From: JBFLYE01 sp040756715 [NCBI: bacterium]
GTDB lineage: Bacteria; UBA9089; UBA9088
Direction: 5' to 3'
Assembly (NCBI GenBank): GCA_040756715.1
Contig: JBFLYE010000084.1
Span: 1 to 7,868 of the forward strand
Length of the DNA: 7,868 nt
Made by a program: the position numbers and the translations under genes. Every line of letters begins with the position of its first letter. Positions within the stretch are counted from its first letter, which is position 1. Under the pieces are notes generated by a model. The model was not told where the DNA came from, searched no databases, and saw only the letters and a program-made list of their open reading frames with translations. Shown here piece by piece: positions 126 to 6,043 of this stretch.

Positions 126-368
126 ATGGCAAAGATAAAGTTGTCTTTAAGGTTTCCCAAGGAACTGATTGATAAGCCAATAATTTATCAATTAAGCCGG
201 GATTTTGATGTAATAACAAACATAAGGAGGGCAAATATTGATCAGGAAATTGGATGGATGGTTTTGGAGCTTTCGGGAGAGATGGATGAGATAGATAGGG
301 CAATTGATGATTTAATAAAAAAGGGTGTAAAGGTGGATCCCATCGGAGGGGATGTTGTGGAGGGGTAA
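126..368 (+). CDS. Small stand-alone NIL-domain protein (copy 1)
   Basis: An 80-residue protein that is essentially one NIL domain, a ferredoxin-like alpha/beta fold. The core runs from about residue 3 to 72: strand KIKLSLRFP, helix around DKPIIYQLSRDF, strand VITNIRRANI, then GWMVLELSGE, a helix with EIDRAIDDL, and a final GVKVDPI strand. NIL domains are known at the C terminus of MetN methionine ABC-transporter ATPases, where they bind amino acid. They also occur in anaerobe proteins tied to sulfide incorporation into homocysteine. This copy has no transporter domain, no ferredoxin domain and no cysteine, so a binding or accessory role is more likely than catalysis. Its stop overlaps the next start by one base (TAATG), and the operon continues into thi4. 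I infer a role in sulfur or amino-acid handling for thiazole synthesis. The fold call is fairly secure; the function is not. Confidence 0.85.
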   Translation: MAKIKLSLRFPKELIDKPIIYQLSRDFDVITNIRRANIDQEIGWMVLELSGEMDEIDRAIDDLIKKGVKVDPIGGDVVEG

Positions 369-610
369 TGGAATTTAAGATTGGGAGGAATGAGATGAAG
401 AAAGAGATGAAGCTTGTATTTCCAGAAGACTTGGTCTGTGAGCCTGTGCTTTATCGCCTGGGAAAGGATTTTTCGGTTATTTATAGCATAAAGTCTGCAA
501 ATGTAACCTCAGATTCTGGATGGGTAGTCCTTTCCCTAGAGGGAGAAGAAGGGGAGATTGAAAGGGCAATAAAGCATTTAGAAGAAAAGGGGGTAATTGT
601 TGAAAGATGA
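368..610 (+). CDS. Small stand-alone NIL-domain protein (copy 2)
   Basis: A second NIL-domain protein, clearly a paralogue of the gene before it. By hand alignment about 31 of 65 core residues are identical, including the shared FP, Y-L, DF-VI, AN, GW-VL-L, GE, EI-RAI and KGV positions. Unlike copy 1 it has one cysteine (C24, in LVCEP). The start is uncertain. ATG 368 gives 80 residues, overlaps the previous stop, and has GGAGG at 359-363 only 4 bases upstream. ATG 395 gives 71 residues, has GGGAGG at 383-388 with 6-base spacing, and better matches where copy 1's domain begins. The 3' end overlaps thi4 by four bases (ATGA), so the three genes are probably translated as a coupled unit. Function unproven; a ligand-binding or sulfur-metabolism partner of Thi4 is an inference from context. 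Confidence 0.83.
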   Translation: MEFKIGRNEMKKEMKLVFPEDLVCEPVLYRLGKDFSVIYSIKSANVTSDSGWVVLSLEGEEGEIERAIKHLEEKGVIVER

Positions 611-1386
611 ATAAAATATTTGCACCAATTTCTGAGAAGGATGTAAGCTCTGCAATCGTCTCTGAGTTTTCCAAGCAATTCTTGGAATATGTAGAGAGCG
701 ATTGCATTATCATTGGAAGTGGTCCATCTGGGCTTATCGCAGGAAGGGAGCTGGCAAGGGAAGGAATGAAGGTGCTTATAATAGAGAGGAATAACTACCT
801 TGGTGGTGGCTTCTGGATTGGTGGCTATCTTATGAATAAGGTAACATTAAGAGAGCCGGGACAGGAGATTTTGGAAGAGCTCGGTGTTCCTTGCAAAGAA
901 ACGACAAAGGGGCTATATGTTGCAGATGGTCCTCATTGTGTATCAAAGCTTATTGGCTCTGCCTGTGATGCAGGTGTTAGATTCTTGCAATTGACCGTAT
1001 TTGATGACCTTGTCTTGCAAGAGGAAAATAGGGTCTGTGGCGCTGTGGTAAATTGGACGCCAATTGAGGCACTTCCAAGGGAGATTGCCTGTATAGACCC
1101 AATTCCTTTAGAGACAAAGGTTTTAATTGATGCAACAGGACATGATGCTTGCTGTGTTAAGAAGCTTGAGGAAAGGGGGTTAATAAAAACAAAGGGGTTT
1201 GGTGCGATGTGGATTTCTCAATCAGAAGACCTTGTGGTTGAGCATTCTGGTGAGGTATGGCCTGGCCTTGTTGTAATCGGAATGGCAACCGCCACCACCT
1301 ATGGCTTGCCCAGGATGGGACCTACCTTTGGTGCAATGCTTCTCTCTGGCAAAAAGGGTGCAGAAATAGCAAAAAGGCTGATCTGA
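607..1386 (+). CDS. thi4: Thi4-family thiazole synthase (ADP-thiazole biosynthesis)
   Basis: A 259-residue Thi4-family protein, which makes the ADP-thiazole precursor of thiamin from NAD, glycine and a sulfur source. Visible features in order: an N-terminal ISEKDVSSAI segment typical of the family, the dinucleotide-binding GSGPSG (37-42) ending its strand at IIER (58-61), GGG (66-68), NWTPIE (149-154), ACIDP (161-165), DATGHD (175-180), VVEHSGEVWPGL (210-221) and a C-terminal GLPRMGPTFGAMLLSGKK (233-250). Length is prokaryotic; yeast Thi4 is about 326 residues. C162 falls just before the DP motif. As I recall the families, that place is His in the sulfide-using Methanocaldococcus enzyme and the sacrificial Cys205 in yeast. 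This protein may therefore donate sulfur from its own cysteine. The start overlaps the NIL copy 2 stop by ATGA. Old databases label this family ribose/ribulose bisphosphate isomerase; the motifs fit Thi4 better. Confidence 0.93.
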   Translation: MNKIFAPISEKDVSSAIVSEFSKQFLEYVESDCIIIGSGPSGLIAGRELAREGMKVLIIERNNYLGGGFWIGGYLMNKVTLREPGQEILEELGVPCKETTKGLYVADGPHCVSKLIGSACDAGVRFLQLTVFDDLVLQEENRVCGAVVNWTPIEALPREIACIDPIPLETKVLIDATGHDACCVKKLEERGLIKTKGFGAMWISQSEDLVVEHSGEVWPGLVVIGMATATTYGLPRMGPTFGAMLLSGKKGAEIAKRLI

Positions 1387-5342: not shown

Positions 5343-5795
5343 CTATTTAACCGCTTCAATAAAAGCATCTTTGGTGTGGTAACTGAAGAAAATATCAAAT
5401 TCTGAAAGTAATCTTTCAAATCCAATTACTAATGGTACATTATCACCTGGAGCAAGATAAGCCTTTATTCCTATTGTTTCTGTAGCATACTCTGGATCAA
5501 TCAAGCGTAATTCAATTGTGGCAACCCTAACAGACATAGCACATTCCTTTTTAGGAATTACACCCCGTAATTCTGTTTCACCTATAACCTTATTAATGCA
5601 TTTCCTCCATATCTTGTGCGGAATAAGAGAAATTGGAGCACCTGTATCTACAATAGCAGATTCAGGGCTACTCCATCCTTGAGAAGTCCTAAACTGGATG
5701 ACTGCTAAAAGCCTAATACCTTTATGCAACTCTATTCCACTTTTGGTATCAATAACAGGTTCTGTAGAAAAGAAGAGCCGAATTCTTTTATTCAT
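5343..5795 (-). CDS. Retropepsin-like aspartic protease
   Basis: A 150-residue single-domain aspartic protease of the retropepsin type. The active-site strand is SAIVDTGAPISLIP (46-59), with D50-T51-G52 as the catalytic triplet. Residues 119-135 (NVPLVIGFERLLSEFDI) match the second conserved strand-plus-helix of the fold, where a hydrophobic run ends in G before the helix. Only one DTG is present, as expected for an enzyme that becomes active as a homodimer. No signal peptide or membrane helix is visible, so it is probably cytoplasmic. Its ATG overlaps the stop of the preceding DUF5678-like gene by ATGA, so the two are almost certainly made together. Natural substrates of such bacterial proteases are largely unknown; the partner could be a substrate, a regulator or an inhibitor. 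Confidence 0.85.
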   Translation of the reverse strand: MNKRIRLFFSTEPVIDTKSGIELHKGIRLLAVIQFRTSQGWSSPESAIVDTGAPISLIPHKIWRKCINKVIGETELRGVIPKKECAMSVRVATIELRLIDPEYATETIGIKAYLAPGDNVPLVIGFERLLSEFDIFFSYHTKDAFIEAVK

Positions 5796-6043
5796 AGTAT
5801 TCTCGCTTGTCCTTCTATAAAAAGCGTAACAGGTGGTCTACCTATTTCTCTGGATATAGATTCTTCTCTTTCATCGGTTAAATCTTCTCCAAAAGCTACT
5901 ACTTTTTTATCTGCAATTGCTACCCACATCTCTGCGTATTTTTCCCTAAGATCAGCATAGTGCTCTAATGCCCATTTATGATCTTCCCAAAAGTCGGATG
6001 CTAAACGCTCCTCTTGCTGTAATTTATGTATTTTAGGTATCAT
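5792..6043 (-). CDS. DUF5678-like small protein paired with the protease
   Basis: An 83-residue acidic protein. Residues 1-34 are a charged helix (KLQQEERLASDFWEDHKWALEHYADLREKY is the run I read as helical, parts at 6-35). The signature WVAIADKKVVAFGEDL (40-55) follows, then a helix DEREESISREIG and a final strand VTLFIEG (72-78). The WVAI-x-VVA-G pattern resembles the DUF5678 family; that match is from memory. There is no signal peptide or cysteine. It is the first gene of the minus-strand cluster, with its own promoter (6112-6141) and a strong GGAGGTG site 7 bases before the ATG. It overlaps the protease gene by ATGA. A small first gene coupled to an enzyme resembles toxin-antitoxin or regulator-enzyme pairs, but no function is established. 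Confidence 0.75.
   Translation of the reverse strand: MIPKIHKLQQEERLASDFWEDHKWALEHYADLREKYAEMWVAIADKKVVAFGEDLTDEREESISREIGRPPVTLFIEGQARIL

Follow-up and report, generated by a model that had tools for sequence, protein, structure and literature searches.

The NIL domain is known as the C2 domain of MetN in the methionine importer, where methionine sits at the C2 dimer interface and transinhibition of MetN has been described (PMC10710835; sources with a PMC number are cited here for the portions consulted). It also occurs in the DUF39/COG1900 and NIL-ferredoxin system (L-ASST, MA1821-1822), and methionine feedback has been proposed for the NIL-ferredoxin homocysteine enzyme (PMC12068725); a Desulfovibrio NIL/ferredoxin protein is required for methionine synthesis (PMC5764234). 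Here we describe two stand-alone NIL genes, NIL-1 and NIL-2, which precede a gene for the ADP-thiazole synthase Thi4 in JBFLYE01 sp040756715, one of 19 Desantisbacteria genomes compared in this work. The stretch of DNA analyzed (hereafter referred to as the window) is a whole contig of 7,868 bp (JBFLYE010000084.1, or C84 of genome G000) from a 1.55-Mb metagenome-assembled genome. We consider it reasonably probable that the NIL pair is the methionine-sensing, feedback-regulating component of a MetM-type homocysteine (methionine) module, and that Thi4 rides along in the sulfur operon.

Two further systems are important for the comparison. Streptomyces MetM, according to PMC12172450, which cites Hasebe et al. 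2024, is a homocysteine synthase that uses O-phosphohomoserine and has an S-adenosylmethionine (SAM) riboswitch upstream, and the same source places a metO-like carrier gene next to the Microcystis MetM homologue. The module considered here resembles this MetM-MetO system in its threonine-synthase-like pyridoxal phosphate enzyme, which in most relatives lies beside a small ThiS-like carrier, but differs in these anaerobes in that a stand-alone NIL is part of the operon, no SAM riboswitch was found and the carrier was not found in G000 or in the genome of its sister species (G001). With the DUF39 and NIL-ferredoxin system, itself present near group-A Thi4 (the group to which the window Thi4 belongs) in 13 of 80 loci, it shares a NIL beside a homocysteine synthase, whereas the window NILs are 80 amino acids long without a ferredoxin part and G000 has no HcyBio (PF01837) match. 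The ThiS/MoaD-E1-JAB-cysteine synthase operons of Iyer et al. 2006 (PMC1779556) are similar in that related loci have a carrier, E1, JAB/JAMM, cysteine synthase and sulfite reductase, but a word search of the main text, as far as consulted, gave 0 uses of threonine synthase, NIL and Thi4. The locus is a new arrangement of known parts, in which a NIL gene has been added to the MetM homocysteine module and a group-A Thi4 is sometimes joined to it.

NIL genes and the MetM-like homocysteine synthase

The neighborhood of stand-alone NIL genes was computed for 34 loci from 33 genomes (the listed matches with an open frame of at most 112 amino acids, plus two from a phylum search; one of them, L109, is truncated by a contig end and may not be a stand-alone NIL). 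Labels were given by phmmer scores against references drawn from these same loci, to which partner families outside the references are invisible. Within 5 kb on either strand, and among the matches listed, a MetM-like gene is present in 20 of the 34 loci, a MetO-like carrier likewise in 20, and Thi4 in 4. A further MetM case, in G192, is truncated by a contig end (64.5% to MetM vs. 39% to ThrC). Aspartokinase-like genes were also seen near the NIL of G142 and G279, with a homoserine-dehydrogenase-like gene in G279 (from reading of protein starts). Here and below, the names HEPN, MNT, antirepressor, SepCysS, SufBC, LarE, MnmA, IscS/IscU, CysK, JAMM, aspartokinase and homoserine dehydrogenase were given by reading of the sequences, and Pfam was run for the MetM-like, carrier and E1 genes, one PALP protein and DUF6775.

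The two also co-occur across the phylum. NIL frames of at most 112 amino acids are found in exactly the six of the 19 Desantisbacteria genomes that have a strong MetM match (G000, G001, G002, G004, G005 and G015, at 661–922 bits; Fisher test, 3.7e-5 without correction for kinship), and linkage of NIL to MetM is seen in five of them: G001 (711 bp), G002, G004, G015 and G005. A group-A Thi4 is carried by 5 of these 6 genomes. HcyBio/DUF39 is absent in exactly G000, G001, G002 and G004, all four of which carry MetM, and both enzymes are present in G005 and G015. No strong MetY/MetB-family protein was found in the 19 genomes, an absence that is read from PF01053 scores below 46 bits, since the matches were weak cross-matches only. 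Given this distribution of MetM and DUF39, and with no strong MetY/MetB, the MetM-like route has probably taken the place of that through DUF39 in the lineage of the window, with NIL domains accompanying both.

The MetM-like enzyme, which carried the working label ThrC*, is a member of the PALP family. An N-terminal motif of four cysteines is carried by 33 of 34 sequences, and the closest solved structures are those of threonine synthases (best 194 bits). All 34 have the motif STGN-L, as opposed to STGN-T in 5 of 5 canonical-like ThrC proteins, at a site that we take to be phosphate-binding in Thermus ThrC. The G000 protein (G000:C120:9203-10414) stands at 75% to the MetM-like protein of G004. 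It shares 50.9% identity with a protein from Nonomuraea gerenzanensis whose gene has a SAM riboswitch upstream (RF00162, 68.7 bits) and a MetO-like carrier gene downstream (L225, NZ_LT559118.1; this record of 11.85 Mb bears a plasmid label and resembles a chromosome). In addition to MetM, five of the six genomes carry a ThrC-like gene at 39–42% identity (at C206 in G000, as a fragment in G001 and with two stops in G002). The possibility that ThrC* is an ordinary threonine synthase was rejected on account of these additional ThrC-like genes and the differing STGN-T motif. The consulted portions of PMC7311316 and PMC13257386 hold nothing on MetM.

Predicted ligand and role of the NIL domains

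The AlphaFold2 model of NIL-1 has a predicted local distance difference test (pLDDT) value of 90.4, and a Foldseek search with this model returned MetN chains as top matches, with a best template modeling (TM) score of 0.86 to 0.87 (3tui_C, TM 0.86, root-mean-square deviation (rmsd) 1.1). Searching the PDB with phmmer ranked repeat-protein artefacts first for NIL-1 and gave no match for NIL-2, and a family profile was used for the alignment to MetN instead. In this profile alignment to 3dhw_C and 3dhx_A, NIL-1 retains the Asn needed for methionine in E. coli MetN, with Asn32 falling on Asn295 (residue numbers hand-counted from the alignment). Of the 30 stand-alone NILs aligned, 27 have Asn at this position, and the three exceptions are all Ser, namely NIL-2 of the window, NIL-2 of G001 and the NIL of L098. 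NIL-1 contains zero Cys, as do 22 of the 30, and the single Cys of NIL-2 is common only to the NIL-2 of G001 in that alignment. Relative to the C2 domain of MetN, the window NILs are of the same Pfam family and NIL-1 has the same fold and ligand residue, but they are unfused to an ATPase, are encoded by two separate genes and have Ser at the Asn site in one of the two.

The MetN-type fold, the conserved Asn and the lack of Cys make methionine sensing, rather than sulfur carriage, the likeliest property of these NIL domains, and NIL-1 is predicted from model and alignment to bind L-methionine. An earlier reading made from the sequence alone (the sequence-only reading) had placed the NIL pair in sulfur metabolism, with sulfide, a persulfide or a sulfur amino acid as the possible ligand. 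The sulfur-metabolism setting is borne out, and a sulfur amino acid, as methionine, is what is now predicted for NIL-1; the handling of sulfide or persulfide is not supported, and a role as persulfide carrier was rejected since no Cys is conserved.

In the mechanism that we propose, NIL-1 would bind L-methionine at the NIL dimer interface, like the C2 domain of MetN, and NIL-2, with the ligand Asn lost, would act as the partner chain. The methionine-loaded NIL would then restrain MetM or its sulfur supply. From the transinhibition of MetN (PMC10710835) and the feedback proposed for the NIL-ferredoxin enzyme (PMC12068725), we infer by analogy that NIL exerts feedback on homocysteine synthesis, with methionine binding, regulation and the regulatory target all belonging to this inferred part of the scheme; the computations themselves give the fold, the conserved Asn, the lack of Cys, the neighborhood and co-occurrence of NIL and MetM, and the repeated presence of Thi4 in such operons. 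Thi4 would not be served by NIL but would share expression with the sulfur operon in several lineages, which seems reasonable since sulfur is also consumed in making thiazole (a suicide-type enzyme would use up one cysteine per molecule).

No SAM riboswitch was found at the gathering score in 20 other sources scanned, some of which lack a stretch upstream of MetM, and this would leave room for control at the protein level. A speculative extension, to which we assign a low probability, is that the stand-alone NIL generally serves as the cytosolic sensor of methionine for MetM in anaerobes, a protein-level counterpart of the actinomycete metM SAM riboswitch, and that where a Cys-type Thi4 is joined it also throttles Thi4. 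If this were true, the production or use of a Thi4 that would spend one cysteine per molecule would be confined to conditions in which sulfur amino acids are sufficient.

The neighborhood data could also be read as NIL being an obligate subunit or adaptor of MetM, which docks thiocarboxylated MetO or stabilizes MetM, with methionine incidental. The order MetM-MetO-NIL is tight in many loci, NIL and the carrier gene being no more than about 31 bp apart or overlapping in 11 of 34 (L083, L087-L089, L096, L098, L101, L104, L105, L107, L108); G001 keeps NIL with MetM though MetO was not found there, and the requirement for the Desulfovibrio protein, perhaps via its ferredoxin part, is of the kind an adaptor would show (PMC5764234). 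We nevertheless regard this as rather unlikely, since MetM-MetO occurs without a labelled NIL in the stretch in Nonomuraea, L143 and L144, and conservation of the methionine-binding Asn at this level is unexpected for a pure adaptor.

The window and the module in its genus

The features of the window are collected in Table 1. The Pfam and TIGR00292 matches are all above the curated cut-offs (for PF09383, 67.7 bits for NIL-1 and 52.7 bits for NIL-2 vs. a cut-off of 24), and by profile all three are real genes. A search of the G000 genome found no NIL domain beyond these two and no second full Thi4, with four further matches spanning only 35–42 profile positions (the start of the flavin adenine dinucleotide-binding region). 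As the window is a whole contig, the stretch upstream of NIL-1 lies outside view; no thiamine pyrophosphate or SAM riboswitch was found upstream of the unit at the Rfam gathering score, and a promoter and terminator scan of the window was uninformative (3 promoter-like sites vs. 3.6 expected, no terminator).

Table 1. Features of the NIL-1, NIL-2 and thi4 genes in the window, with the match or alignment on which each assignment is based.
Feature	Position	Strand	Evidence
NIL-1, stand-alone NIL domain, 80 amino acids, predicted methionine-binding	126..368	+	Pfam PF09383, 8e-19
NIL-1 Asn32 codon, equivalent of E. coli MetN Asn295	219..221	+	profile alignment to 3dhw_C/3dhx_A
NIL-2, stand-alone NIL domain, 80 amino acids as annotated, start may be 395, Ser replaces Asn	368..610	+	Pfam PF09383, 3.9e-14
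Thi4, Cys-type ADP-thiazole synthase, 259 amino acids	607..1386	+	Pfam PF01946, 2.6e-64; NCBIfam TIGR00292, 8.1e-69; nearest solved 7rk0, E 1.7e-54
Thi4 Cys162 codon, suicide-cysteine position (His in methanogen-type Thi4)	1090..1092	+	aligned with His of 4y4n

The sequence-only reading had bound NIL-1, NIL-2 and thi4 into one unit by their overlaps, and this holds in part. The junctions TAATG (366-370) and ATGA (607-610) are present in the sequence, but NIL-2 has an alternative ATG start 6 nt downstream of GGGAGG, and the first NIL-2 start codon in G001 falls at the equivalent MKKE, which makes the TAATG coupling uncertain. In G001, which is of the same genus and has a thi4 97% identical to that of the window, 1152 bp with a phage-antirepressor-like open reading frame (ORF) separate NIL-2 from thi4, so that the coupling of NIL-2 to thi4 is not kept even within the genus.

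The order in G001 (contig C18) is MetM, an MNT/HEPN-like pair, NIL-1, NIL-2, the phage-antirepressor-like ORF and Thi4, with the MNT/HEPN-like pair occupying the place expected for the carrier gene; the region with this pair and the ORF is L067:2216-4553. On the G000 side, contig C120 ends with MetM and then an MNT/HEPN-like pair, and positions 1-122 of the window, ahead of NIL-1, have no BLAST match to the G001 stretch. The module is altered in this genus. A 90% identical thi4 fragment with a stop was also seen at a contig end of G001 (G001:C18:2-145).

Several observations weigh against a methionine-sensing role of NIL in a MetM module. The MetM gene of G000 is on another contig (C120) than NIL (C84), and the end sequences of both do not match G001 there, so that the linkage of NIL to MetM is shown in G001 and unproven in G000 itself. 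The search for a MetO carrier found one in G002, G004, G005 and G015 (4 of the 19 phylum genomes) but none in G000 and G001, and no ThiF/E1 over the cut-off was found in G000; as the assembly of G000 is 96% complete, these absences are not proof, and given them MetM in these two genomes would use free sulfide or another carrier. NIL-2 has no ligand Asn. In 9 of the 34 NIL loci (L081, L082, L093, L097, L099, L100, L102, L106 and L109), not one of the partners searched for is present within 5 kb, which means that NIL has other settings as well, and at two Thi4 loci discussed below (L195 and L199) NIL lies by Thi4 in a stretch that holds no MetM. The cyanobacterial homologue, according to PMC12172450, seems not to be fully functional as MetM in cells, and we found no report in the open-licence literature of methionine binding by a stand-alone NIL.

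Some of these features would also be expected if NIL-NIL-thi4 were what remains of a MetM operon undergoing erosion, now split and with a HEPN/MNT-like pair instead of the lost carrier gene, with the adjacency brought about by rearrangement and no joint function. The carrier and E1 that were not found, the MNT/HEPN-like pair between MetM and NIL and the phage-like insert before thi4 in G001, the unmatched beginning of the window and the lost Asn of NIL-2 all point this way. Against it, neither the NIL frames nor Thi4 are disrupted, and they are conserved from one species to the other (NIL-1 is 93% identical), and Thi4 joins MetM/NIL operons also in Omnitrophota, Elusimicrobiota and Chloroflexota, and we consider erosion improbable as the explanation.

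The remaining genes of the window look unrelated (SecA, an SNase-like nuclease, a MobA-like transferase and a TPR protein). At 5343-6043 on the minus strand, a DUF5678 gene overlaps a small gene whose match to an aspartyl protease is weak and under the cut-off, and the two genes may form a unit.

Thi4 and its neighbors

Recurrence of NIL beside Thi4 was assessed in 80 named group-A Thi4 loci, retrieved with two peptide patterns as the best 80 of those found; only 37 of them have 3 kb on both sides, and the set overlaps the genome survey (L139 = G002, L141 = G224, L142 = G004, L151 = G015). Counts in this set are of genes on the thi4 strand only within 9 kb, as opposed to the either-strand, 5-kb counts of the 34 NIL loci. 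A stand-alone NIL is present in 13 of the 80 and a NIL-ferredoxin in 13, giving 26 with either kind, and the same loci hold a MetM-like gene in 14, DUF39 in 13 and one or the other in 27. A homocysteine synthase (MetM or DUF39) is also carried by 24 of the 26 loci with any NIL. By chance, NIL would be expected in 0.72 of 80 loci, on the assumption of 2 NIL genes per 2 Mb and of independence between loci, which does not hold for related genomes. In a phylogeny of 89 Thi4 proteins, whose bootstrap is not fully settled, the stand-alone-NIL label changes at least 7 times on well-supported branches (11 in all), and shuffled labels gave a mean of 15.0 changes, with 0 of 500 shuffles as low as observed. 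The neighborhood described by the sequence-only reading does recur in other lineages, and with at least 7 label changes the NIL-Thi4 association is more than a single inherited case, although its occurrences cluster on the tree.

The order MetM-carrier-E1-NIL-Thi4 is found, for example, in Omnitrophota (L170, L183, L197) and in L190, and CysK- and IscS-like genes lie downstream of Thi4 in G192. A short IscU-like frame lies between NIL and Thi4 at L195:8601-8750, where the related L187 and L199 carry longer IscS-/IscU-like genes. No print report of NIL together with Thi4 or MetM was found in the open-licence literature.

That NIL would bind or deliver sulfide, a persulfide or a sulfur amino acid to Thi4, or re-arm its cysteine, as the sequence-only reading had proposed, is very improbable: a NIL does lie within 300 bp on the same strand in 4 of the 80 loci, plus the window and G192 (76 bp), in addition to the 13 loci with a stand-alone NIL within 9 kb, but NIL follows MetM more than Thi4 and the loci that have it beside Thi4 nearly all carry a homocysteine synthase, NIL-1 has no Cys and none is conserved in the family, NIL-2 and thi4 are apart in the sister species, and 54 of the 80 loci show no NIL, though many have short flanks.

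The Thi4 of the window is, by alignment, of the Cys type. Among the first 98 genomes it is 58–97% identical to group A and 36–43% identical to group B homologues, and its Cys162 aligns with the His of the methanogen structure 4y4n. All 18 rows of the group-A alignment have Cys in the sulfur-donor column, the sole group-A row seen with another residue (L050) having been excluded beforehand. The column is His in five aligned group-B Thi4s beside DUF39 and NIL-ferredoxin (L053, L054, L055, L060, L063), with Met or Pro possible in other group-B rows. By a pattern, the Cys is conserved in 75 of the 80 named loci (5 not parsed), in part by selection, as one of the two search patterns contains the active-site Cys. 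A single-turnover Cys Thi4 is distinguished from a multiple-turnover non-Cys Thi4 that uses sulfide (PMC8454699), and Haloferax Thi4 needs the Cys (PMC4215014). By analogy with the enzymes of yeast and Haloferax, a Cys where sulfide-using Thi4 has His means that the window Thi4 would carry its own sulfur. It differs from the suicide THI4 of yeast and Haloferax volcanii in being bacterial and, in relatives, in lying within a sulfur amino acid operon, and its suicide type is predicted from this residue. In other Desantisbacteria (L073-L080), group-B Thi4 lies beside DUF39 and NIL-ferredoxin, in some cases also with SepCysS-, SufBC-, LarE- and MnmA-like genes, which together form a sulfur-insertion cluster. 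A group-A thi4 at G201:C69:18237-18997 is in two overlapping pieces with several stops, and so is probably broken or misassembled.

A more faithful neighbor of group-A Thi4 than NIL is DUF6775 (PF20565), which lies within 300 bp of thi4 in 68 of the 80 loci (L138-L217; see also L110:7478-8278). By genome, DUF6775 is present in 19 of 36 with group-A Thi4 (at least 53% identity), 2 of 63 with other Thi4 matches only and 0 of 286 without a match, as hand-counted from the listed rows with the short group-A fragment of G139 left out of both Thi4 classes. It has no match in G000, and none is labelled in 24 group-B Thi4 stretches (about 18 distinct loci, many with short flanks). The model (pLDDT 94.2) has an archaemetzincin-like fold (3lmc, Z 14.6, rmsd 2.7, 165 aligned), and the sequences have no HExxH (59 of 59) and invariant Cys/His. 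From the modeled fold, DUF6775 is perhaps an inactive or altered metzincin serving the Cys-type Thi4; no print report on it was found in the open-licence literature.

If NIL is the methionine-sensing component of a MetM module, a tempting reading centered on Thi4 is corrected, and orphan stand-alone NIL genes would be given a specific and testable function in a methionine pathway that was first described in 2024. The MetM pathway would be extended to Desantisbacteria, where four genomes are without HcyBio/DUF39 or a strong MetY/MetB-family protein. Group-A Thi4, for its part, is repeatedly housed with two unrelated homocysteine synthases.

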